From Bacillota bacterium (GTDB taxonomy: Bacteria > Bacillota > Sulfobacillia > JACIYH01), in the NCBI GenBank assembly GCA_040757085.1, contig JBFLXJ010000003.1:1-55651 (forward strand): DNA of 55,651 nt, written 5' to 3'. Made by a program: the position numbers and the translations under genes. The notes beneath the pieces were generated by a model. It made no database searches, had not been told where the DNA came from, and saw only the letters and a list, made by a program, of their open reading frames with translations. The stretch's first letter is position 1. Every line of letters starts with the position of its first letter. Positions 18,047 to 42,608 of the stretch are shown here, one piece after another.

Positions 18047-18252
18047 ACCAAGCAACCTCCCAACCCCCAATGGGGGCTAATGTCCTCCACACAAGAGGCG
18101 TTGCAGCCCCGAGGCTTCTGAGCACCCGGACAGCCACTTCCTCGTCCGCCCACATTTTATCACGCCGCCACACAGGGTTCCAAAGCACGCACCTCCCACC
18201 GCCCAAATCGTGGCGGTCCTGCGAAGAATATAAGGGAACCGGCATCAGCCCC
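18047..18252. other. divergent intergenic region
   Basis: This lies between the minus-strand DsrE-ASKHA pair and the plus-strand riboswitch-led gene. It must hold promoters for both, but I see no confident -35/-10 pair. Confidence 0.35.
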
Positions 18253-18332
18253 CAAAAAAGGCAAACCCGGCGAAAGCCGGGGGCGCAAAGCCACGGGGCC
18301 TAAGGCGTAACGCTATGGCAGCCCGGCCGCTG
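18253..18332 (+). promoter_or_regulatory. c-di-GMP-I (GEMM) riboswitch
   Basis: The sequence contains the GEMM-I signature in order: GGCAAACC, a stem closed by a GAAA tetraloop (CCCGGCGAAAGCCGGG), CGCAAAGCCACGGG, a GCCTAAGG joining segment, and a second arm CTATGGCAGCCCGG. It lies on the plus strand about 165 bases upstream of the gene at 18497. A further GC-rich inverted repeat (CCTGCC at about 18356 with GGCAGG near 18384) could serve as expression platform. Ligand selectivity (c-di-GMP versus cGAMP) cannot be settled by eye. Confidence 0.88.
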
Positions 18333-18496
18333 GGGGATCCTGTGATTCCCTTCCGGCCTGCCGGCTGCCGCAAGGAGGTGGTTGGCAGGTCGGGTCTCTT
18401 GTCCTGAGCAGTCGGCCAGGCTTCCCAACCCAAGCCCCTGTCGATGCGCGGGAACGGGGGCGAAGAATCGATCGGTTCGGGGAAGGAGTGATGAAC

Positions 18497-19606
18497 ATGA
18501 AGAAGCAAGTTCGGGGCTTCCTGGTCCTATTGCTGGTATCCATCTTCCTGCTAGGGGTAGTACACACGGCGCTGGCAACCGGAGAAGAACCGGCGGGTGG
18601 TAATGCCGCTGCCGGCACCACGGTTGGCTCAGGTGGCGAGCAACCCCCGGGGACCGCAGGCGATGATGCAACGCTGGCATCCGGTGAAGACGAGCACGAG
18701 GACGAGGGGAGTGACTCCGCATCTCCTGAGGCCGAGCCCGGTGACGAAGATGAGCAATTCCGGTTGCAGGTCGAAGCAAATTTGGAACAGGCCGTGGCCT
18801 CGGACGAGGAGAGCGAAGAAGAGCCTGACGAGCCCGATGCAGGAACGCCGGCGGGTCTTGCGAAGCGCATAGCAAAGCTGGAGCAGCAGCGAGATCAGAA
18901 ACCTGAAGATGCCCGGATACTCTGGAAGCTGGCTGTGGCATACAAGGCGGCAGGCGAGTACGACAAAGCCATATCCGTCCTTAAGGAGATGAAGAACCTG
19001 CCCGGTTCCGGCGCCAAGGTAGCCGTCATGCTGGCCCTGTGCCTGCGGGCCGCAGGTGACCCGCAAGCCGCGCTCACCGAGCTAGAGAGCCTGGACTCCA
19101 CGGTTCCGGGGGCAGTGTATGCCTACCGGGCGATCCTGAAGGATCAGCTGGGTGAGGTCGAGGAAGCAGTCGAGGACATGGAGGAGGCGGTCGCTGCCGA
19201 GCCGGAGCAGGACGACATGTACGCCAAGCTCGGTGAGCTTTACGATAAGGCGGGCCAGCACGGTGTCAAGGTCTTCGTGAAGGGCAAGAAGGTTCCATTT
19301 GACGTCGAGCCTTTCATAACGCCCCAGGGCAGGACCATGGTGCCCTTGCGGGCCATTGTCGAGTCGCTGGGTGCGGACGTGAAGTGGGATGGCAAGCTGC
19401 GGCTGGTGACTGTGGTCAAGGGGGATATTACGGTCGTGCTGCCAGTGGGCTCGCTACGGGCCAGCGTGAACGGCGTAGAGGTGACTCTCGACGTGCCCGC
19501 CGTAATCGTGGGGGACAGAACCATGGTACCTCTGCGCTTCCTGTCCGAGAGCCTCGGGGCTAGGGTGGGATGGTTCACGCAGGGACAGGTGGTGTCGGTC
19601 AACTAG
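18497..19606 (+). CDS. secreted TPR / copper-amine-oxidase-N domain surface protein
   Basis: This 369-residue exported protein has a signal peptide (MKKQVRGFLVLLLVSIFLLG), a long acidic Gly/Glu/Asp-rich linker (about residues 30-115), TPR-like helices (ARILWKLAVAYKAAGEYDKA; AKVAVMLALCLRAAGDPQAA) and a C-terminal copper-amine-oxidase N1-like domain with its double motif GRTMVPLRAIVESLGADVKW and DRTMVPLRFLSESLGARVGW. Such domains are common stalks on Bacillota surfaces and do not imply oxidase activity. I prefer the third ATG (18497) because GGAAGGAG lies 8 bases before it. The upstream riboswitch predicts control by a cyclic dinucleotide. Confidence 0.85.
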   Translation: MKKQVRGFLVLLLVSIFLLGVVHTALATGEEPAGGNAAAGTTVGSGGEQPPGTAGDDATLASGEDEHEDEGSDSASPEAEPGDEDEQFRLQVEANLEQAVASDEESEEEPDEPDAGTPAGLAKRIAKLEQQRDQKPEDARILWKLAVAYKAAGEYDKAISVLKEMKNLPGSGAKVAVMLALCLRAAGDPQAALTELESLDSTVPGAVYAYRAILKDQLGEVEEAVEDMEEAVAAEPEQDDMYAKLGELYDKAGQHGVKVFVKGKKVPFDVEPFITPQGRTMVPLRAIVESLGADVKWDGKLRLVTVVKGDITVVLPVGSLRASVNGVEVTLDVPAVIVGDRTMVPLRFLSESLGARVGWFTQGQVVSVN

Positions 19607-19629
19607 CATATCGGCGTGTAACACCAACA

Positions 19630-19662
19630 GGGTCCGGGGCAACGATGCCCCGGGCCCTTCCG
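19630..19662 (+). terminator. hairpin terminator after the surface-protein gene
   Basis: A nearly perfect 12-base stem (gggtccggggca / tgccccgggccc) with an ACGA loop lies 24 bases after the stop. The following T-tract is weak (ttcc), so termination may be partial and allow read-through into sigI. Confidence 0.6.
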
Positions 19663-19728
19663 CTCTGGCAGTGCCTGCTCGATCTAATCTTAGAGCTGCA
19701 GCCACTACCTGTGAAGGGATGTGTGAGG

Positions 19729-20466
19729 GTGAATCCCGGCCCCGACCACCTCGTAGCGCGCGCCCAGGCCGGGGATGCGTACGCCCGGGAAATCCTCTTG
19801 CGGGATTACCAGCCCTTCGCGCTGCGCGTCGCGGCACAGGTGCGAGGGAAGTTCGTAACCGGATCGAGCGACGACGCGTCGGTAGCCCTGGTCGCCTTCA
19901 ACGAGGCCATCGACAGCTACCAGCCGGATCACGGGGTCGGCTTCCTCAGTTTCTGCGAGACCGTGATCAGGCGCCGGCTGATTGACCACTACCGGCGCCA
20001 GTCCCGGCAAGCGCGGGAAATCCCGCTTTCGGCCCTGGAGCAGGACGACGAAGAGGGGAACACGTACTCACCGCAGCAGATGCAAGCATCCCAGACCGCG
20101 CACCAGGTCTACGTGGAGGCCTGGGAAAGGCGGGAAGAAATGGCCCGTTTCGAGGCCAGGCTGAAGGAAATCGGACTTGGCCTGGGGGAGCTGGTTCGAG
20201 TGTCTCCCAGGCACCAGGACAGCCGGCAGCGCGCGCAACGGGCGGCCCGCTATCTGGCCGAGCACCGGGAGCTGGCCAGGCAAGCACTGGCCCAGCGCAG
20301 GCTGCCGGTACGAGAACTCGAGAAGGCCCTGGGGTTGGGACGTGACATGCTGCAGCGAAATCGCAAATACATCCTCGCCCTGACCCTGATTCTGCTTGAG
20401 GAATTCCCTTACCTCCAGGACTACCTGCGCCCGCGATCACCCTCGCCGAAGGGGATGGCGACGTGA
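19729..20466 (+). CDS. sigI: RNA polymerase sigma factor SigI family
   Basis: The 245-residue protein has the SigI sigma-70 region 2 pattern: LVARAQAGDAYAREILLRDY, VALVAFNEAIDSYQPDHGVG and FCETVIRRRLIDHYRRQSR. Its C-terminal half (LPVRELEKALGLGRDMLQRN, then LTLILLEEFPYLQDYL) is typical of SigI rather than ECF factors. The GTG at 19729 is chosen because the SigI match begins there and AAGGGA lies 9 bases upstream; the upstream open frame runs through the preceding terminator. Its stop overlaps the start of rsgI by GTGA, so both are co-translated. SigI factors respond to heat or extracellular polysaccharides in other Bacillota. Confidence 0.88.
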   Translation: MNPGPDHLVARAQAGDAYAREILLRDYQPFALRVAAQVRGKFVTGSSDDASVALVAFNEAIDSYQPDHGVGFLSFCETVIRRRLIDHYRRQSRQAREIPLSALEQDDEEGNTYSPQQMQASQTAHQVYVEAWERREEMARFEARLKEIGLGLGELVRVSPRHQDSRQRAQRAARYLAEHRELARQALAQRRLPVRELEKALGLGRDMLQRNRKYILALTLILLEEFPYLQDYLRPRSPSPKGMAT

Positions 20467-21668
20467 AACGGGGAATCGTGCTAAAGATACAGGGGAAGAT
20501 GGCCATCGTGCTCACGCCCGACGGCGAGTTCCTCCGCACCCCCACTGGCCGGGAAGGCTGGTGGCCGGGGCAGGAGGTGACCTGGCCGGACCGGGAGCCG
20601 CGAGCCTACTTGCGCCCGGCCCTGGCCCTGGCCTGCGTGCTGGTCCTCCTCCTGGCCGGCAGCGGGTTGGCCTACCGCCACTGGTGGGCACTGGGCCCGG
20701 TGGTGGCTTACGTGTCGGTGGACATCAACCCCAGCCTGGAACTGGGCGTAGACGCCCGCGAGAGAGTGTGCAGCGCCTGGGCCTTCAATCCCGACGGGGA
20801 AAGGCTGCTTGCGGGATTGACGTACCGCCGCCGGAGCCTGGTGAAGACGCTCTCTGACCTCACGCTCCGCGCCGTGGAGCAGGGTTATCTCGGCGCGGAC
20901 CGTCCGGGGGCGGTGCTGGTTGCAGTCGTGCCTGCCGGGACGACCGCAGGGGTGGATCCTGCCCGGTTGCGCGAGGAAGCTGTAACTGCCGCTCGCCTGG
21001 TGCTGCAGCAACGGGGTCTCAAAGTCGAGGTCAAAGGATGGACTGCCGACCGGCAGGTCCACGAGGAGGCCAGGCGTCACCACATCTCGGCCGGGCGGAT
21101 GGCCCTCTATCTGGCGGCCCGTCGCGCCGGGGCGGAAGTCACCCTGGAACAGGTCTGCCGGGAACCGATAGCCCAGGTGCTTAGCCTGGTCACGGGGCGT
21201 CCCGACCAGAGAGAACCGGGCACGACGCAAGAGGAACGGGAGTTCACCCAGGGTGAAGGCTGGCACGGGAAAGACGATCGATCCCCGGCTGTGCCCGGCA
21301 ACAAGCCGGACTCACCGGGCGGACAGAAGACGGGCTCGCACGGGGCAAGTCCATCTGGAGGAAAGCCCGGCCCCGGCTCGGGTGAGGAGCCCGCTGGCGC
21401 CCCCGGCGAAAGCACACCCACTCTGGAAAGCAGCCCCGGCACGGTTTCCCCGCCGCCGCCAGAGCAGGACACCGAGGAACCACCGGCTGACGAAGACGAG
21501 AGCACCCCTCAGGCTACCCAACCACCCCCGCACCCGGAAACGCAACCGGACGGCGACGGTCAGACAGCAGTCTGCCCGGAGGGGACATCCCAGGAGCAGG
21601 CCGAGGAGCCGCCCCATTCCATGAATGACCTCCTGCCGCCCGCAAGCGGCGAAGAGGAAGGCAGGTAG
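20463..21668 (+). CDS. rsgI: anti-sigma-I factor RsgI
   Basis: This 401-residue single-pass membrane protein has a cytoplasmic anti-sigma domain (KRGIVLKIQGKMAIVLTPDG), a transmembrane helix at about residues 52-71, and an extracytoplasmic RsgI domain starting YVSVDINPSLELGVDARERV. Asn89-Pro90 in that motif is the position at which RsgI proteins are reported to cut themselves. The last 150 residues are a Pro/Gly/Glu-rich disordered tail without a carbohydrate-binding or other sensor domain, so the signal it detects is not evident. It overlaps sigI. The two-gene unit and domain order are typical. Confidence 0.88.
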   Translation: MKRGIVLKIQGKMAIVLTPDGEFLRTPTGREGWWPGQEVTWPDREPRAYLRPALALACVLVLLLAGSGLAYRHWWALGPVVAYVSVDINPSLELGVDARERVCSAWAFNPDGERLLAGLTYRRRSLVKTLSDLTLRAVEQGYLGADRPGAVLVAVVPAGTTAGVDPARLREEAVTAARLVLQQRGLKVEVKGWTADRQVHEEARRHHISAGRMALYLAARRAGAEVTLEQVCREPIAQVLSLVTGRPDQREPGTTQEEREFTQGEGWHGKDDRSPAVPGNKPDSPGGQKTGSHGASPSGGKPGPGSGEEPAGAPGESTPTLESSPGTVSPPPPEQDTEEPPADEDESTPQATQPPPHPETQPDGDGQTAVCPEGTSQEQAEEPPHSMNDLLPPASGEEEGR

Positions 21669-21714: not shown

Positions 21715-22107
21715 TCAATGGAGGCAGATGAGCTGGAGGTCGGTCAGAAGATCGGGAGCGTCCAGCCTCCCCCGGTAAGCCACCCTGCCTTCCTTCAGGA
21801 CGTAGCAGGTCACGCCCCACGGTGCCACGGCACGGGCCGCCTGCTCCACCAGCAGGATGGCAGTCCCCTGCTCGTTTATCGCCCGCACGTGTTCCAGCAC
21901 GGTGCCCGCCAGGGCGGGACTGAGGCCCATGGTGGGTTCGTCCAGGCAGAGGAGGCGCGGCCGGGCGACCAGGGCCCGGGCGAGGGCCAGTATCTGCTGC
22001 TCTCCCCCCGAAAGGCTTCCCGCTGTCGGCAGCAGCCGTTCCTTCAAGCGGGGAAACAGTTCGAGAACCCGTTCCACCGCTTCCATCCGCTCCTGTGTGG
22101 CGTACCT
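21715..22107 (-). pseudogene. C-terminal fragment of a LivF-type ABC ATPase
   Basis: The fragment has the ABC signature [19 protein letters not shown], Walker [14 protein letters not shown] and the H-loop-region sequence typical of branched-chain amino-acid transporter ATPase LivF. Walker A and the first 100 or so residues are missing; the sequence before about 22107 is unrelated Gly-rich reading. It sits after the MacB-like operon but belongs to a different transporter type, so it is probably a translocated remnant. Confidence 0.7.
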
Positions 22108-22221
22108 TCCCCGGCTCCCCCCCTGCCCACCGCCAATGCAACCCGCACCGAGTTCCAAATTCTCGGGCGGCGGCAGCGACAGGGGGAGGCTGGCGGCGGG
22201 TCGCCGGCCCTGGGGACGCGC

Positions 22222-23364
22222 TCAGAGAAAGCGGAGAGCCCGGGCAGGGTCAAGGCAGGAGGAGTGCCGGGCCGGGAAATATGCGCCCAGAAGGCCGACC
22301 GCCACGGCACCGGCCCACACCAGCAGTCCCAGCTGGGGGTACAAGCCCATCGTCCTCGACGACGGATCGAGCAGGGAAAGCAGGATGCGGGCGGCTGCCA
22401 GGCCGACTCCGTAGCCAACCACCGCAGCCCCTGTGCTCAGGATCAGTACCTCGACCAGGAAGACCTGCAATACGCGCCGCTGGCGGTAGCCCAGGGCGCG
22501 CAGGATTCCCACTTCCCTGGTCCTCTCTCTCACTGCGGAGAATTCCATGGCCGCCACCAGCAGGGCACCCGCCATGGCCGCCACCACCGTGACCAGCGGC
22601 ACCAGGGACCGGATTTGCTCCAGTAACGCAAGGCGAGCCTCCCCCACGTTTCGTACCAGGCTGACCTCTGCTTCGGGCAACAGCTCCGCCAGGCGGTCCG
22701 CCAGGTCGACCCGGTAAGGGGCACGCGCTTCCACGAAGGTGAGGGCGCCGGGTCGGCCCAGGCGGCGGCGCAGTTCCTCCAGGGAAAGGAAGAGCAGCCC
22801 GTCCTCCTCCTGGCCCGTCTCCTCCAGGACCCCGGCCACCCGATACTGCCTGCCCAACAAAGAGACCCCGCCACCCGGTCCGATCCCCCATAACTCCCCC
22901 AGGTGGGAGCCGAGCAGGACCTCCCCTTCCCCTTGCGGGTATGCTCCCCGGACCTGCCAGTAGGGTCGCATTTTCCTCTCTGCCTCCCACTCCACTCCCA
23001 CCACCAGCACCTCATCCCCGAGTGGCCCCGCCGCCAGTTCCAGCAGCTTGGGGGCTACCAGATCGATGTCGTCCACCGTCTCCAGCCTGGTGCAGGTGTC
23101 GGCAGGCAGGTCCGCCACCTGGTAACTCAGCCCCGGCCCCACCGGAAAGCCGGCATAAGTGAAGTTCCATTCCTGGCGCGCGGGGGAAATCACCACCCTG
23201 ACCCCGCTGGAACGCAACTCTTCGCCGAGTTGTTTCTCCATGGTCAAGGTGATGGCCAGCAACCCCACCACTGTAGCGACACTCACCCCCAGCCCCAGGA
23301 GCAGTATGACCGCCCTCCCGGGCCGCCGTTTGAGGTGACAAAGGGCCAGCTCCGTCAGCGTCAC
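22222..23364 (-). CDS. FtsX/MacB-like ABC transporter permease
   Basis: The 380-residue permease has the MacB/FtsX layout: an N-terminal helix (RRPGRAVILLLGLGVSVATV), a large extracytoplasmic domain (about residues 50-240), and three C-terminal helices including VREVGILRALGYRQRRVLQV-type coupling sequence (here TREVGILRALGYRQRR). It ends with the classic PARALRFL. The GTG at 23364 overlaps the ATPase stop by GTGA. It pairs with the ATPase and a second permease upstream, and the extracytoplasmic domain resembles that of the second permease (YAGFPV / YAGLALP; VAPKLLEL / VAPKLLAI), so the two may form a heterodimer. Confidence 0.85.
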   Translation of the reverse strand: MTLTELALCHLKRRPGRAVILLLGLGVSVATVVGLLAITLTMEKQLGEELRSSGVRVVISPARQEWNFTYAGFPVGPGLSYQVADLPADTCTRLETVDDIDLVAPKLLELAAGPLGDEVLVVGVEWEAERKMRPYWQVRGAYPQGEGEVLLGSHLGELWGIGPGGGVSLLGRQYRVAGVLEETGQEEDGLLFLSLEELRRRLGRPGALTFVEARAPYRVDLADRLAELLPEAEVSLVRNVGEARLALLEQIRSLVPLVTVVAAMAGALLVAAMEFSAVRERTREVGILRALGYRQRRVLQVFLVEVLILSTGAAVVGYGVGLAAARILLSLLDPSSRTMGLYPQLGLLVWAGAVAVGLLGAYFPARHSSCLDPARALRFL

Positions 23365-24095
23365 TGCCCCCACCCGTCCCTGCCCGCGTCTTGCGGCCAT
23401 AGTGTGCCATCGCGCATAGTCAACACTCTGTTCGCGTAGCGCAGGTTCTCCAGGTTATGGGTTACCATGATGATGCAGATGCCCTCGCCATTGAGCCCTG
23501 CGAACAGATCCAGGATCTGCGCACCGGTCCGTGAGTCCAGGGCACCCGTGGGCTCGTCGGCCAGTACGATGGGCGGGCCATTAACCACGGCCCGCGCAAT
23601 GGCCACCCGCTGCTGCTCGCCACCTGACAACTGATTGGGCAGGCGGTTACACCTGTCGGCCAGGCCCACCCTGGCCAGAGCCTCTTCCGCCATCTCCCGT
23701 TGTCGCCGCCGGGGGATCCCGCTTGCCACCAGGGGCAGCATCACGTTCTGCAAGGCGGTAAGGTAGGGAATGAGCTGGAACTCCTGGAACACGAATCCCA
23801 CGTACTGGTTGCGGAAGTCAGCCCGCCTTTCCGGGTGCAGCCCATAGATATCCATACCGTCCACCACCAGCCGCCCGGCCGTGGGCGGGTTGAGGCCTCC
23901 CAGGATGCCGAGGAGAGTACTCTTACCGGAACCGGACGGCCCCGTCACGCCCACGAAATCCCCGGCCTCGACCTCCAGGGAAACGCCCCTGAGGGCCACC
24001 ACCCGACCGTCACCGCTCAGGTATTCCTTGCGCAGGTTTTCCGCCCGAACCAGGCTCATCCCGTGGTCAACCCCCGTTTCCTCCAGTTCCCTCAC
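23361..24095 (-). CDS. MacB/LolD-type ABC transporter ATPase
   Basis: This is a complete 244-residue ATPase: Walker A GPSGSGKST, Q-loop VFQEFQLIPYLTALQN, signature LSGGEQQRVAIARAV, Walker B IVLADEPTGALDS, and H-loop IMVTHNLENL. The length and DEPTGALD are typical of LolD/MacB ATPases that drive FtsX-like permeases. The GTG at 24095 overlaps the upstream permease stop by GTGA; ATG 24059 is an alternative. It would power the heterodimeric permeases on either side. Confidence 0.92.
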   Translation of the reverse strand: MRELEETGVDHGMSLVRAENLRKEYLSGDGRVVALRGVSLEVEAGDFVGVTGPSGSGKSTLLGILGGLNPPTAGRLVVDGMDIYGLHPERRADFRNQYVGFVFQEFQLIPYLTALQNVMLPLVASGIPRRRQREMAEEALARVGLADRCNRLPNQLSGGEQQRVAIARAVVNGPPIVLADEPTGALDSRTGAQILDLFAGLNGEGICIIMVTHNLENLRYANRVLTMRDGTLWPQDAGRDGWGQ

Positions 24096-25315
24096 AGGAA
24101 CCGCAGCGCCCTCACGGCGTCTATCCGGGCAGCCTGCCAGGCAGGCACCGTGCCTGCCAGCAGGGACAGTAGCACAGCACCACCGACACCCACCGCGAAG
24201 AGGAGGGGATCAAGGGAAATAGCCACCCTCATGCCGGCAAGGGAAGGTCCCAGCACCCGGGCCAGCACATTACCCAGGAAGGAACCCAGCAACCCTCCCG
24301 CCAGGCCCAGCGTTCCTGCTTCGAGGTACACAAGCGCCAGTATGTGCCCCTGGCGAAATCCCAGCGCCCGCATGATACCGATGTCCCTGGTCCTATCTCT
24401 GACCGAGCCCAGCAACACCAGGGCGACGGCCAGGGCACCCAGCATCCCCGCCGTCACCGCGAGTGCCAGGGCGAAATGGCCAAAGCGGTCCACCACTGCC
24501 CGGCGTGCTTCCACGGCTTCCTTGATGGCGGTTACCCGTGATCCCGGAAGCTTCTCTGCGACCTGCTTCACGATTTCCTCAATGGGACAGGTGTTGCACA
24601 GCGCCGCCACCTCAATCAAGCTCACCCGACCCGTATTTCCCGTAAGTTCCTGCAGTACCCGCAGGTCAACCCAGATCGCCCGGTCTTCATCGGAGCCCAC
24701 GGGATCGATCACACCTGCGACCTCGAACGCCCGCCCGTTCAGCCGCACGGTGTCTCCTACGTCCTTCTGCCACCGCCCGGCCACCTGCGCTCCCAGCAGG
24801 ACCTGCGTGGGACCCACCCCCAGCGGGGGGTAAGCGGGGGCATAATCCGTCTGCCGGGCGGGCATCGACTCGCCATGGAGCAGCGTCGCGCGAGACACCC
24901 GTATCCTCCACCACTTCTTGAGCCTCAACTCGGCCGGGAAGCGCACGCCCACGGCTGTGGCGCGCCCCTGCGGGGTCTCGACGATGGCCAGCAGCTTGGG
25001 GGCTACGATGGCGATGCTTTCCCGGTTCTTTATGGAGCGCACCGTTTCGGCACTGACCTCCGGCAGGTACTGCTCCCTGACCGAAGTGGCTGGCAAGGCC
25101 AGTCCTGCGTAACTGAACCGCCTGCTCGCCTGGGGCAATACCAGGATGTTTGCCCCTGTTTGATCGAAGGCGTCCCCGATCTCGGTTCTCATCGCTCCTG
25201 TGACGGAAAACATGACCGTGAGGGTGGTTACGCTGAACACGATCACCAGGAGCAGGAATACCGTCCTCCCCGCCGCACGCCGCAGGCTGCCCCAGGCCAT
25301 GTCGGTGAGCCCCAC
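24092..25315 (-). CDS. FtsX/MacB-like ABC transporter permease (second)
   Basis: This 407-residue permease has the same plan as the one downstream: an N-terminal helix (RTVFLLLVIVFSVTTLTVMF), a soluble domain with DQTGANILVLPQASRRFSYA, and three C-terminal helices with RDIGIMRALGFRQGHILALV, ending DAVRALRFL. The soluble domain includes CNTCPIEE, a CxxC that could bind metal or undergo redox change. The GTG at 25315 is chosen for its G-rich ribosome site. It directly follows the Gly-rich anchored protein and DUF2318 gene, linking the transporter to them. Confidence 0.85.
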   Translation of the reverse strand: MGLTDMAWGSLRRAAGRTVFLLLVIVFSVTTLTVMFSVTGAMRTEIGDAFDQTGANILVLPQASRRFSYAGLALPATSVREQYLPEVSAETVRSIKNRESIAIVAPKLLAIVETPQGRATAVGVRFPAELRLKKWWRIRVSRATLLHGESMPARQTDYAPAYPPLGVGPTQVLLGAQVAGRWQKDVGDTVRLNGRAFEVAGVIDPVGSDEDRAIWVDLRVLQELTGNTGRVSLIEVAALCNTCPIEEIVKQVAEKLPGSRVTAIKEAVEARRAVVDRFGHFALALAVTAGMLGALAVALVLLGSVRDRTRDIGIMRALGFRQGHILALVYLEAGTLGLAGGLLGSFLGNVLARVLGPSLAGMRVAISLDPLLFAVGVGGAVLLSLLAGTVPAWQAARIDAVRALRFL

Positions 25316-25343
25316 GTCCCGACCCCCCTGCGACCGTCCGCCG

Positions 25344-25859
25344 CTAGTAGATCTCCTGCCACTGGCCCTGGCGGTAGCTGTAACTCTTGACCAGACGGCC
25401 GTCCTTATAAATGTCTGCCTGTACGTGGCACCCGAAATCCCGCACACGAACTTCCACCCGGCCCGTGTCGCCGGTTTGCTGCCGGTAAACTTCCAGGGCA
25501 GCCTGCTCCAGGGCCCGCACATCGAGCATCCCGGCGCCTATCCCCGGCCACCCACTGCCGCTGCCGCCGCCGGCACCGCCACCCGGCAAAACGCCGCTCC
25601 CGCCGCTGCCTGCCCAGAACGGACAACCGCCTCGCCCGGCCCCGCAGCAACCGCCAAAGCCTCCCCCGAAGGAGGCTCCGGCACCTGAGCCCGGGCCCCG
25701 GGCCAGCAGGGCGAAAATACCGCCGTAGCCACCCGGAAAGTTGTCCACCCCGGCCGCCTGGGCGCCAGCCCAGCTACGGAAGCCCACGAACAGCACGGCC
25801 ATCAGCACCAGCACCACCACGAGCACCCGCTCAGGCCGCCGCCCCGAAGGATCTTGCAT
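25344..25859 (-). CDS. membrane-anchored protein with Gly-rich linker
   Basis: This 171-residue protein has one N-terminal transmembrane helix (VLVVVLVLMAVLFVGF), a Gly/Ala/Ser linker (about residues 37-105) containing CCGAGRGGC, and a small C-terminal beta-rich domain reading GRVEVRVRDFGCHVQADIYK and ending in SYSYRQGQWQEIY. I do not recognise the family. Its place between the DUF2318 gene and the transporter permease suggests it hands a ligand from one to the other or anchors the complex; this is inference. The Cys residues in the linker and domain are candidates for metal binding. Confidence 0.65.
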   Translation of the reverse strand: MQDPSGRRPERVLVVVLVLMAVLFVGFRSWAGAQAAGVDNFPGGYGGIFALLARGPGSGAGASFGGGFGGCCGAGRGGCPFWAGSGGSGVLPGGGAGGGSGSGWPGIGAGMLDVRALEQAALEVYRQQTGDTGRVEVRVRDFGCHVQADIYKDGRLVKSYSYRQGQWQEIY

Positions 25860-25876
25860 CGTCTTCCGTCCCCTTT

Positions 25877-26479
25877 CTAAACCCTGGGTTTCCAGGATCG
25901 AAGTTCCTGTTCGTCGAGGAGGAGGTTACCCCCCTCCACCTGGTACCTGACTTCGTCGGGTGGGAAGTTCACACACCCTCCCGAGATGCCCCTGAGATCC
26001 TCCAGATTCCATTCGGTGCCGCACACGTTGCATACCAACCGATTTCCCCGGATGTGAAAAGTCGTGCCGCTGCACGGCTCGCAGAAGGAGACGGCCGCCA
26101 CTACCCGCCCTGACGGTGCCACGTAGACCGTCACGGGCAAGTAGTCGAAGGTGGTGCCGTTGGGCAGGGTGACGGGCTGGTTGGGGATCTTGAAGCTGAC
26201 AATCCCTCTCTCGTTCACTCTGGCCAGGTCTACGTAGATCCTCCCGTCACGGAAGTCCGGAACGATCTCTGTCTGCTGTATTCTCCGGCCCGGGTCGTAT
26301 TTGCGAGACCCCAGGTTGTAAGATCCCCCCTTCGAGGAAGACCCCGGCGTCCCCCGGTCCACCAGCACCACCCCTGCCAGCATCACGACCACCAGCACCG
26401 CCACCAGCAGGGGTACGCGGCGCCGCTGCCCACCCCCTTTCCCCATTACCTTCGCTCTCTTGTCCACAACCGGACCCAT
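25877..26479 (-). CDS. DUF2318 (Fe-S-containing membrane protein family)
   Basis: The 200-residue protein has one transmembrane helix (VPLLVAVLVVVMLAGVVLV) followed by an extracytoplasmic domain with the DUF2318 Cys pattern: SFCEPCSGTTFHIRGNRLVC, CNVCGTEW and GGCVNFPP. In known gene clusters this family accompanies FTR1/P19-type iron uptake and MacB-like ABC genes (for example the Campylobacter jejuni p19 locus, from memory). The ATG at 26479 is chosen; GGGGGG lies upstream. A BlaI-like palindrome precedes the gene. No FTR1 or P19 gene is in the window. Confidence 0.8.
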   Translation of the reverse strand: MGPVVDKRAKVMGKGGGQRRRVPLLVAVLVVVMLAGVVLVDRGTPGSSSKGGSYNLGSRKYDPGRRIQQTEIVPDFRDGRIYVDLARVNERGIVSFKIPNQPVTLPNGTTFDYLPVTVYVAPSGRVVAAVSFCEPCSGTTFHIRGNRLVCNVCGTEWNLEDLRGISGGCVNFPPDEVRYQVEGGNLLLDEQELRSWKPRV

Positions 26480-26503
26480 CGCTGTAACCCCCCGTCCTCC
26501 TAC

Positions 26504-26513
26504 ACTACGTAGT
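26504..26513. promoter_or_regulatory. BlaI-like operator before the DUF2318 operon
   Basis: ACTACGTAGT is a perfect 10-base palindrome made of the ACTAC/GTAGT half-sites typical of BlaI/MecI operators. It lies 25 bases upstream of the DUF2318 start and just after a terminator, so it is well placed to control a separate promoter for the DUF2318-ABC operon. Confidence 0.6.
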
Positions 26514-26523
26514 AGACATACCC

Positions 26524-26557
26524 ATAAAAAGGGCTGATCAGCAGAAAGGCCGATCAG
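26524..26557 (-). terminator. intrinsic terminator after the M56 gene
   Basis: On the minus strand a 9-base stem (ctgatcggc / gctgatcag, one G-U pair) with loop ctttct is followed by cccTTTTTAT. It overlaps the M56 stop codon and separates the blaI-M56 transcript from the DUF2318 operon. Confidence 0.7.
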
Positions 26558-27513
26558 CAGAGGGGAACCAAAATTAGTGCCGTAAGCACCCACACCACCG
26601 CCGGTACCCACCGCGACCCGCGGGCCGAAAGAGACCGGGACGGTGGCTCGAGCAGCCGCTCGACCCGCCGCTGTACCTCACCGGCTGCGAGCAAGGGCGT
26701 GAAGTTATCCAGCGCCAGTTGCCACCACGCCCCCGCTGTCCCCAGCTTCCAGCCCTTGATCAGTGCTGAGGCCAGGGCCAGGGGCTTGCCCGTCACCCGC
26801 GCCGCCACTGCGTCGGCCGCCGCCTCCGTTTCTGCTTGCAGCCTGCGGAACACGGGCAAGGAGAGGCCGGTCAAAAGGAGCGCGTCCCGCAGCATCACAC
26901 CCAACCACTTCTTCAAGTGGTCACAGGATTTGACGTGGGCAAGTTCGTGGGCCAGCACGGCCGCCAGTTCTTCATCATCCAGTTGATCCGCCAGCTGGCG
27001 AGACAGAACGACCACCGGTCGCCAGATGCCCACCGTGAATGCATGGGCCAAGGGATGCGGCGTCACCATCACCACCGGCGGCTTCATCCCCATGCGCTCT
27101 GCCAGACCCGCCGCCATAAGGGCGACCCGGCTGTCGCCCGGCTCGGGCCCGAAACGGCGCCAGAGGCGCCCCGCCATCCACGCTCCCGCCGCCGCTTTGC
27201 CTACCCCTGCCGCCAGGGAGACCACGAAAAAAGGTGCGAGCAGATAGGCCAGCAGGGTCCCCGCCCAGCATAACCAGGCCAGGAATGCACCCGCGTACCC
27301 CACTCCGCCCAACACGGGTACCCAGCAGGCGACCCGCCAGCGCCAGGCCCAGGAGGCGACGTAAAGGACAAAGGGCACCGCCAGGGGAGCCCACCAAACG
27401 GCTCGCCTGGCACCGGGCGGTAAGCCGGGCAACTTGGTGGCCAGCGCAGCCAGGGCAGCGCCCACGAACATTCCGGAGAAAGCGTAGACGATGAGCGGGT
27501 GCAGGTAGGCCAT
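26554..27513 (-). CDS. M56 (BlaR1-like) membrane metallopeptidase
   Basis: The 319-residue protein has N-terminal transmembrane helices, a zinc-peptidase core with AAVLAHELAHVKSCDHLKKW (HExxH with the usual spacing) and TEAAADAVA supplying the third ligand, and a final helix. It lacks the penicillin-binding sensor domain of true BlaR1. In BlaI/M56 pairs the protease relieves repression by destroying or triggering loss of BlaI. It starts two bases after the blaI stop, so they are translated together. The signal it senses is unknown; metal or envelope stress is a reasonable guess given the regulated operon. Confidence 0.88.
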   Translation of the reverse strand: MAYLHPLIVYAFSGMFVGAALAALATKLPGLPPGARRAVWWAPLAVPFVLYVASWAWRWRVACWVPVLGGVGYAGAFLAWLCWAGTLLAYLLAPFFVVSLAAGVGKAAAGAWMAGRLWRRFGPEPGDSRVALMAAGLAERMGMKPPVVMVTPHPLAHAFTVGIWRPVVVLSRQLADQLDDEELAAVLAHELAHVKSCDHLKKWLGVMLRDALLLTGLSLPVFRRLQAETEAAADAVAARVTGKPLALASALIKGWKLGTAGAWWQLALDNFTPLLAAGEVQRRVERLLEPPSRSLSARGSRWVPAVVWVLTALILVPLC

Positions 27514-27515
27514 TT

Positions 27516-27959
27516 CTACTTCCGTTCCTCCGACCGCCTTTCCTCCAACCGCCGACGCCTGATTACCTGCTCCAGTTCCAGCAACCTGGCCTCGTCCTCA
27601 GTCCCCATCCTCTCCACCAGGTGGGAAAATACGGGGCGGGCGAACTCCTCCAGGAGGCCGTCGAGCACCGTCCTGGCCACTCTGTCCATGAAGTCTTCCC
27701 GAGTCAGGGCCGGCCGGTACACGTAATAGTTGCGCTCCTGCTCCCGCTCGAGGAGTCCCTTCTGAGCCAGGCGAGTCATGGTGGTCATCACCGTGGTGTA
27801 GGCGAGGGGGCGCTTACCCGCCAGATGCCCGAGTACGTCCCGCACCGTGACCCGGCCCAGGCGCCAGGCCACCTCCATCACCTCCGCCTCCAGTTCCCCG
27901 AGGACCTTTGTCAGCCCCGTTTCCCGGGGGCGGAATTCGAAGCGAATCTCCCTGCCCAT
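27516..27959 (-). CDS. BlaI/MecI-family transcriptional repressor
   Basis: This 147-residue winged-helix repressor carries LGELEAEVMEVAWRLGRVTV, then VLGHLAGKRPLAYTTVMTTM and LAQKGLLEREQERNYYVYRP, the standard BlaI DNA-binding domain, and a helical dimerisation tail with many Arg/Glu. ATG 27959 is preferred over the GTG at 27977 because the predicted transcript begins only about 20 bases upstream and AAGGGG lies between. A palindromic operator overlaps its own -35 box, so autorepression is expected, as is repression of the second palindrome at 26504. Confidence 0.88.
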   Translation of the reverse strand: MGREIRFEFRPRETGLTKVLGELEAEVMEVAWRLGRVTVRDVLGHLAGKRPLAYTTVMTTMTRLAQKGLLEREQERNYYVYRPALTREDFMDRVARTVLDGLLEEFARPVFSHLVERMGTEDEARLLELEQVIRRRRLEERRSEERK

Positions 27960-27985
27960 CCCTACCAGCCCCTTCACTCCCCTGC

Positions 27986-28019
27986 ATTATACCCAGGCGC
28001 TCTACTACAGTCAATAGTA
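27986..28019 (-). promoter_or_regulatory. sigma-A promoter with overlapping BlaI operator
   Basis: TTGACT (28009-28014) and TATAAT (27986-27991) are separated by exactly 17 bases on the minus strand, a near-consensus promoter for blaI-M56. The inverted repeat TACTA (28003-28007) / TAGTA (28015-28019) brackets the -35 box, so a bound BlaI dimer would block RNA polymerase. Confidence 0.8.
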
Positions 28020-42212: not shown

Positions 42213-42217
42213 GCTTG

Positions 42218-42608
42218 CGGTGAGCAGGTCTGTAAGCCGAATTCTGTGCCCCCGGAGCCGGCCGCACCGGCTACCGGAGCGGCAACCATCCGTCTGGGAC
42301 CCCGGTCACCCGGGGCCTCAAGCGACCTAACCCGGGGAGTCCGCGGGCCACATCATCCTCCCCCTACTTGGTCTTGCTCCGGGTGGGGTTTACCTAGCGA
42401 GCCGGTCGCCCGGCCCCTGGTGGTCTCTTACACCACCGTTGCACCCTTGCCGTTCGGACTGTCGCCCTCCCGGCGGTTTCTTTCTGTGGCACTATCCCTG
42501 GGGTCGCCCCCGCTGGACGTTATCCAGCACCCTGCCCTTTGGAGTTCGGACTTTCCTCGAGCACGACCTCGCGGTCACCTGTGCTCGCAGTTGCCCGACC
42601 TGCTCTTT
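42218..42608 (-). ncRNA. rnpB: RNase P RNA, bacterial type
   Basis: On the minus strand the 5' part carries GAGGAAAGTCCGAACTCC and the 3' part ACAGAATTCGGCTTA, the universally conserved P4-region halves of bacterial RNase P RNA. The ends pair as GAGCAGGTC with GACCTGCTC (helix P1), which sets the borders to within a few bases. The length of about 390 bases and the internal ACAGAAAGAAACCGCC and GGTAAACCCC segments fit a type A RNA. It is followed by a strong terminator and preceded by a promoter-like TTGACG-17-TAACCT. Confidence 0.95.

Follow-up and report, generated by a model that had tools for sequence, protein, structure and literature searches.

The 55,651-nucleotide contig JBFLXJ010000003.1 of a Bacillota bacterium (GCA_040757085.1; Sulfobacillia), which is taken entire as the window of this analysis and belongs to a 2.67-Mb genome of 98% completeness, carries a minus-strand operon formed by the genes of a BlaI-family repressor (blaI), an M56 membrane metalloprotease, a DUF2318 protein, a glycine-rich cysteine protein (here the GCH protein), an FtsX permease, an ATP-binding cassette (ABC) ATPase, and a second FtsX permease. 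The operon would encode a cysteine-based extracytoplasmic metal or thiol module, placed under a BlaI-M56 pair that has shifted from the sensing of antibiotics to cysteine-based sensing of thiol, metal, or redox state, a reading to which we assign a probability of roughly 0.55. The pair recurs beside DUF2318 transporters in other genomes, and a 17-bp operator is conserved in front of both the regulatory and the transport genes. Moreover, conserved cysteines predicted to lie outside the membrane are found in the DUF2318 protein, the GCH protein, permease 1, and the protease, and for this reason the set is read as a cysteine-based metal or thiol relay. Of the two roles offered by the initial annotation, metal uptake or envelope redox module, the second fits better, given these cysteines and the operators found at cytochrome c maturation (ccm) genes of relatives.

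The features of the locus, all on the minus strand and in window coordinates, are as follows:

28003..28019, minus: operator O1, TACTATTGACTGTAGTA (TACTA-N7-TAGTA), over the -35 box of the blaI promoter
27986..28014, minus: sigma-70-type promoter of blaI, TTGACT-17-TATAAT, 11/12 bases
27516..27977, minus: blaI, BlaI/CopY-family repressor without cysteine (PF03965, E 1.3e-28)
26554..27513, minus: M56 membrane metalloprotease, 319 aa (PF05569, E 1.4e-14), with HExxH, a cysteine pattern, and a BlaR1-like model
26533..26558, minus: terminator-like hairpin with a T run in the M56-DUF2318 gap; weak, as the region holds three such matches and shuffles 3.7
26498..26514, minus: operator O2, TACTACGTAGTGTAGGA, with one mismatch; it overlaps the probable DUF2318 ribosome-binding site
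25877..26479, minus: DUF2318 (FtrD-like) protein, 200 aa, apparent single N-terminal anchor (PF10080, E 4.1e-18)
25344..25859, minus: GCH protein, with an anchor, a Gly-rich linker with CC, and a C-terminal alpha+beta domain
24092..25315, minus: FtsX/MacB_PCD permease 1, 407 aa, CxxCP at residues 240-244 (PF12704 and PF02687)
23361..24095, minus: ABC ATPase of LolD/MacB type (PF00005, E 2.3e-33)
22222..23400, minus: FtsX/MacB_PCD permease 2, 392 aa, without CxxC (PF12704 and PF02687)

All the genes named in the initial annotation were recovered with Pfam and NCBIfam as a single operon, in which several of them overlap or almost touch. Gene calls are simple longest open reading frames (ORFs), so that start sites are uncertain; blaI possibly starts at 27959 instead of 27977, and the start of permease 1 was placed near 25315 because the longer ORF would run into the GCH gene. 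For the ATPase, LolD and MacB are the best NCBIfam models, both under their cut-offs. The low end of the annotated interval (21715-22158, minus strand) had been taken as part of the set. It corresponds to the C-terminal part of a LivF/UrtE-like ATPase directly 3' of permease 2, with the match beginning at position 81 of 137 of the ABC_tran profile, and was rejected as an operon member, being a piece of an unrelated ATPase. An Rfam scan gave no RNA family within the operon. Profile searches of the whole host genome found one match each for PF10080 (DUF2318) and PF03965 (BlaI), none for FTR1 (PF03239) or P19 (PF10634), both noted as absent in the initial annotation, and none for CcmH; CcmF/CcmC-like genes do occur elsewhere in the genome.

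Recurrence of the BlaI-M56 pair beside DUF2318 transporters

PF10080 is present in 9 of 61 relatives; among 398 genomes from the phylum, 60 have matches over the cut-off, at 77 places in total. The neighborhoods of 85 distinct DUF2318 places, the window's included, were fetched, and 84 of them, from 68 genomes, were classified, one without any ORF (L206; L and G numbers denote loci and genomes) being dropped. Linkage was scored where BlaI and M56 lie within five ORFs of DUF2318 on the same strand, and in the eight places with less than 3 kb upstream of DUF2318 a missing BlaI may reflect the contig end. Neighbor labels come from profile hidden Markov models built from the fetched loci; those for ccm, HMA-type ATPase, M56, and BlaI were checked with Pfam on single members, and those for histidine kinase, response regulator, and DacF carry no Pfam check.

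BlaI and M56 accompany DUF2318 in 30 of the 84 places (30 genomes, 17 family codes), with an FtsX permease in all 30; named carriers include Carboxydocella thermautotrophica, Thermincola ferriacetica bins, and Carboxydothermus islandicus. The neighborhood survey called for by the initial annotation thus found the linkage to recur, much more widely than had been supposed and in several families of Gram-positive bacteria. Together with the conserved operator, this supports the proposal of BlaI/M56 control over this type of transporter. The commonest order, BlaI-M56-DUF2318-GCH-permease-ATPase-permease, is found in 16 of the 30 loci, and in one more with an extra permease; since the order recurs in other genomes, a chance origin was rejected.

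The remaining places comprise 18 with a short DUF2318 and FtsX but without BlaI, 21 with a short DUF2318 and no FtsX, and 15 with a long DUF2318 of FetA length (380 aa or more), where BlaI-M56 is found in 0 of 15. Short proteins account for 69 of the 84, which shows that DUF2318 in the sampled phylum consists mostly of short proteins. This contrasts with the statement in PMC6083913 that DUF2318 genes are 'almost always' in clusters like the Campylobacter iron locus. In 14 of 14 long loci with FtsX, the order is DUF2318-permease-permease-ATPase, and the one long-type locus that was scanned (L193) has FTR1 and P19 just upstream. Also, at L096-L099, L102, L106, and L015, a short DUF2318 lies beside HMA/DsbD_2 or CopA-like genes, with no FtsX permeases; this is a separate copper-linked context.

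The operator and the cytochrome c maturation genes

The operator is a 17-bp dyad with half-sites TACTA/TAGTA and a spacer of seven bases. It was first spotted by eye in blaI leaders, and the independent tests are therefore the M56-DUF2318 gap, the ccm leaders, and the genome-wide counts. Of the 30 BlaI-linked loci, 20 have a perfect operator upstream of blaI and 24 have one with at most one mismatch. M56 and DUF2318 adjoin in 26 loci, and the gap between them holds a perfect operator in 13 and one with at most one mismatch in 17. With the half-sites set at other spacings (3-6 or 8-12 bases), matches occur in 0-2 of the 30 blaI leaders and 0-1 of the 26 gaps, and dinucleotide shuffles of the blaI leaders yield a perfect site in 1 of 3100 and one within one mismatch in 35 of 3100.

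In the host genome, O1 is the sole perfect copy, and seven sites, O1 and O2 among them, have at most one mismatch. The blaI promoter that O1 overlaps is the only promoter-like match between 21600 and 28300, where shuffles average 0.5. The congeners G001 and G002 have one-mismatch sites at the O2 position too. The hairpin at 26533-26558 stands directly before O2, an arrangement that could allow attenuation and a roadblock, yet shuffles give such matches as often. A perfect site occurs once each in G000, G002, G064, and G110, in every case at blaI; G037 has two, both in its BlaI-DUF2318 locus, and G001 has none, its blaI site carrying one mismatch. Across 28 genomes, perfect sites number 0-24, compared with 1-15 for the pattern read backward.

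Moreover, ccm genes lie beside DUF2318 in 15 of the 84 places, four of which have BlaI-M56, and the labels CcmF, CcmH, CcmB, CcmC, and CcmE were confirmed by Pfam on members. Fourteen of the 15 ccm leaders were counted, L081 being left out because it runs off its contig. Within 600 bp of the first ccm gene, a limit chosen after looking, one to three perfect operators are found in 10 of the 14 leaders, namely those of G168, G169, G173, and G133 and of the clusters L213, L214, L215, L216, L217, and L220. Outside these 10, the perfect site of L078 lies some 1.6 kb upstream of ccmF and is separated from it by small ORFs, L080 and L051 have one-mismatch sites only, and L064 has none. A gene for an HMA-type metal ATPase lies next to the ccm-leader operator in G168, G169, G173, and G133. 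In G266, a BlaI-M56 pair is divergent from a ccm cluster with operators between them, and the ccm cluster of a Desulfosporosinus bin (L121) is headed by blaI.

Also, in the Thermincola-type loci L214, L216, and L221, a cysteine/methionine gene set lies upstream of blaI, with operators some 280-300 bp ahead of its first gene, and in L221 operators are found near cupredoxin, OsmC, and Lgt genes as well (Pfam on L221 members). These sites perhaps point to a wider regulon.

Cysteines of the protease, the repressor, and the transport module

The Pfam scan of the window M56 (319 aa), the one member scanned, detects no penicillin-binding domain, and the M56 proteins of the BlaI-linked set end right after the last helix. 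Among 33 distinct sequences, HExxH is present in 33, Cys82 in 32, and Cys63 in 26, and the last residue is a cysteine in 30; the window protein has all three cysteines (63, 82, and the last residue, 319), and the seven without Cys63 include those of four ccm-BlaI loci and L121. The model of the window protein (mean predicted local distance difference test score 80.6, predicted template-modeling score 0.80, residues 62-73 under 50) superposes on Staphylococcus aureus BlaR1 with a Z of 19.0 and 3.5 Å over 244 residues. In BlaR1, both termini lie outside the cell, and residues 56-96, which link helices 2 and 3, form an extracellular loop (PMC9834060); by homology to this topology all three M56 cysteines would face outside.

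The control consisted of 30 M56/M48 loci listed from 61 genomes, one per genome, and thus not every match. A Cys tail is present in nine of the 30, all nine beside FtsX ABC genes, and in 0 of the 21 others, one of which (L244) has a cysteine third from the end. Six of the nine have an adjoining DUF2318, one belongs to a Carboxydothermus-type operon, and the other two are G097 and G077. Cys-tailed M56 proteins are 309-343 aa long, compared with open frames of 349-862 aa for control M56 matches above 140 bits (one of 163 excepted). In G062 (L255, 7455-10382), a further short BlaI-M56 pair, the M56 ending in CV, is followed by DsbD_TM (CcdA-like) and thioredoxin-like genes; judged from gene content, this neighborhood would favor a thiol-redox theme. 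In L256 (G025, of the window's class), a short M56 without a Cys tail lies beside blaI and near HMA-cluster genes, with no FtsX set and no operator within one mismatch.

For the repressor, the best NCBIfam model is CopY with 59.4 bits, below the curated CopY_TcrY cut-off of 121.95, and the C-terminal CxC copper motif is found in the last 40 residues of 0 of 33 distinct BlaI sequences. Lacking this motif, the window BlaI was rejected as a CopY.

In the transport module, the DUF2318 cysteines form a CxxC-x13-CxxC-x15-C pattern (C133, C136, C150, C153, and C169) that is invariant in 20 aligned sequences, and a sequence search of the Protein Data Bank (PDB) gave no significant match (best E 0.59). 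All 30 BlaI loci encode a CxxC in the first permease, as do 17 of the 18 other short loci but none of the 13 long-type loci; for second permeases, the counts across the same locus classes are 0 of 25, 0 of 13, and 1 of 12. In the window, the CxxCP of permease 1 sits between the MacB_PCD and FtsX domains and is placed outside the membrane by its position.

The GCH protein, considered new in the initial annotation, has no Pfam or NCBIfam match at E 0.01 and by sequence would represent an undescribed family. Among 19 distinct aligned members, [FY]GCH is conserved in all (window residues 143-145 for GCH), and by reading of the alignment the linker has a CC or CxxC pair in all but one. The model is of high confidence over the last 60 residues, which form a helix and four strands and place GCH at the first inter-strand turn, and of low confidence over the anchor and linker; against the PDB, the best sequence match has E 0.14, and Foldseek with the model gave none at E <= 0.001. 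Seventeen of the 30 BlaI loci include the gene, compared with one of the 18 other short FtsX loci and none of the 14 long ones, and G077 has it ahead of blaI-m56, preceded by an operator, at a locus that lacks DUF2318. This suggests that GCH goes with BlaI-M56 rather than with DUF2318. The G077 locus (L252) comprises the genes of the GCH protein, blaI, a Cys-tailed M56, one FtsX permease, and the ATPase, with two perfect operators and no DUF2318, and is a smaller version of the system.

Apart from the operon, the window contains a c-di-GMP-I-GGC riboswitch at 18251-18335 (plus strand, 67.9 bits), 5' of an ORF at 18488-19606 with TPR and a copper-amine-oxidase N-domain, which is followed by a sigI/rsgI pair at 19570-21668. 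A class A RNase P RNA lies at 42217-42606 (minus strand).

Proposed mechanism, alternatives, and comparison with known systems

In the proposed mechanism, a BlaI dimer bound to TACTA-N7-TAGTA over the blaI -35 box and before DUF2318 would repress both units, as the conservation of the sites suggests. The M56 protein, N-out and C-out like BlaR1, would sense an extracytoplasmic change through its loop and C-terminal cysteines, perhaps with the GCH protein as a partner in trans, and would then inactivate BlaI by cleavage, as expected from family and conservation. Once derepressed, the module may pass iron or copper ions, a thiol, or electrons from one anchored cysteine protein to another, the likely parts of this relay being the five-cysteine site of DUF2318, the GCH protein, and the CxxCP of permease 1, with the ATPase driving the process via two MacB-like permeases. 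In Thermincola-type and related genomes, where the operator precedes ccm, the module might serve or protect haem-thiol chemistry outside the membrane. A more specific version of this reading is that M56 senses thiol-redox or metal state directly by its cysteines, with GCH in trans and not by a ligand-binding domain, and that BlaI controls both the relay and the ccm operon in metal-reducing Gram-positives. We hold it tentatively, at somewhat under even odds; if true, BlaI-M56 would be a regulator of the capacity for extracellular electron transfer.

Several observations weigh against a cysteine-sensing module of this kind. BlaI binding, BlaI cleavage, the signal, and the substrate are all points that we infer, and conserved cysteines cannot separate metal from disulfide chemistry. 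The association is also not uniform: 18 of the 48 short FtsX loci are without BlaI-M56, and G097 and G077 keep a BlaI-M56-FtsX set without an adjoining DUF2318, so that DUF2318 is not the core. In G070 (L254, 7542-9020), a Cys-tailed M56 and blaI have no FtsX, DUF2318, or ccm genes adjoining, and the M56 of the Desulfosporosinus ccm cluster is without the three cysteines. As for the operator, it is missing (<=1 mismatch) upstream of blaI in six BlaI-linked loci out of 30, including three with the Carboxydothermus-type order, and in G400 blaI and the single perfect site are some 6 kb apart. In AT-rich genomes, the number of perfect sites is little higher than the backward-pattern control, and in several it is lower; there the argument is one of location alone. 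Among 20 operator-hit stretches that were fetched, four are ccm leaders; in the other 16 the site lies beside genes that are of other kinds or carry no label, and in two of these it falls within an ORF. Finally, the 19 kb read for the ccm-like genes of the host (C23) contain no operator with one mismatch or fewer, and the ccm link therefore does not hold in the host genome.

Another explanation is a copper-responsive, CopY-like module, in which copper would be sensed outside the cell and trapped or moved by the module, thereby protecting the attachment of haem to cytochromes. The CopY model is the best-scoring one for BlaI, HMA/DsbD_2/CopA-like or cupredoxin genes stand beside DUF2318 in 12 of the 84 places, an HMA-type metal ATPase gene is next to the operator-bearing ccm leaders of the four genomes mentioned above, and DUF2318 domains fall within a predicted CsoR copper regulon (PMC4938975). 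However, the CopY score is under its curated cut-off, the CxC motif is missing throughout, and no HMA linkage within five ORFs was scored at any of the 30 BlaI-linked places; we regard this explanation as unlikely.

Less probable still is an iron-uptake module, that is, a stripped FetABCD-like system without FTR1/P19 and with a BlaI switch instead of Fur. It would account for the cysteine spacing of DUF2318, which matches the CxxC-x13-CxxC-x14/15-C of Campylobacter FetA (PMC6083913), and for the two permeases and ATPase as in fetBCD, where disruption of fetA to fetD causes growth defects (PMC10783030). Nonetheless, neither FTR1 nor P19 is found in the genome, BlaI-M56 is absent from the FetA-length loci, the gene order differs, and the permease CxxC is missing from all the long-type first permeases. 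Also, the extra operators were found at ccm clusters, although iron genes were not searched for operators. The derived version, a FetMP iron locus with lost genes, was rejected because order, permease motif, and DUF2318 length differ.

A classical BlaI-BlaR1 system for beta-lactam or cell-wall stress that happens to control an export pump is very improbable, for although both families are present and a D-aminopeptidase (PF04951) and an amidohydrolase (PF07969; which we take to be an N-acyl-D-amino-acid deacylase) lie upstream, with a presumed DacF-like carboxypeptidase within nine ORFs of DUF2318 in eight loci also counted in its favor, the M56 lacks the penicillin-binding sensor, the operon has no beta-lactamase, the Cys-tailed M56 proteins are shorter than the controls, and relatives show the ccm link.

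Returning to the cysteine-based module under BlaI-M56, one close counterpart in gene content is the Campylobacter jejuni fetMP-fetABCDEF locus, with which it shares the five-cysteine spacing of DUF2318, two permeases, and one ATPase. The initial annotation had likened the operon to the accessory part of the P19/FTR1 locus, and the likeness stands in kind but not in order, DUF2318 length, or permease motif. The window has no FTR1/P19, and its DUF2318 is short, with an apparent single anchor as read from the sequence, compared with a FetA of eight membrane helices (PMC10783030). Moreover, its order is DUF2318-GCH-permease-ATPase-permease and not DUF2318-permease-permease-ATPase, and it adds the CxxCP of permease 1, the GCH protein, and BlaI-M56 with the operator at the head. 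In MacB/LolCDE systems, MacB_PCD and FtsX permeases and a LolD/MacB-type ATPase are likewise found. However, in the window, ATPase and permeases are encoded by separate genes, the two permeases differ from each other, and permease 1 has CxxCP; no adaptor gene was seen in the operon.

On the regulatory side, BlaI-BlaR1 and MecI-MecR1 share with the window a BlaI beside an M56 protease with HExxH, and the model fits BlaR1. The window M56 differs in having C-terminal and loop cysteines instead of a penicillin-binding sensor, and the apparent targets are the ABC module and, in relatives, ccm genes. CopY/CopR belong to the same repressor superfamily as the window BlaI and use a related dyad operator, RNYKACANNTGTMRNY (PMC7253601), whereas the window BlaI has no CxC motif as defined in that paper, and its half-sites are TACTA/TAGTA with a 7-base spacer. 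Inverted-repeat sites are also known for other BlaI proteins, since BlaI_0696 and BlaI_1845 of Clostridium thermocellum have a motif of GTCTAT repeats five bases apart (PMC8457756) and Rv1846c (BlaI) of Mycobacterium tuberculosis regulates the atp operon (PMC5874750). A non-antibiotic BlaI is therefore not new in itself, but the passages of these reports that were consulted describe no DUF2318 or ccm target.

Among the matches listed in a literature search that scarcely covered subscription papers, nothing was found on BlaI with cytochrome c maturation or a DUF2318 transporter. Set against the systems above, the Cys-tailed M56, the GCH family, the CxxCP permease, and the ccm link are apparently new, as we found no account of them. 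The control of cytochrome c maturation in Gram-positives such as Thermincola has, to our knowledge, been little studied, and the link of M56-BlaI to this process in such genomes would bear on it. Finally, sensor-less M56-BlaI pairs would gain a testable non-antibiotic role, for which an operator and target genes are defined, and transporter function could be approached through two new handles, the GCH family and the CxxCP permease.

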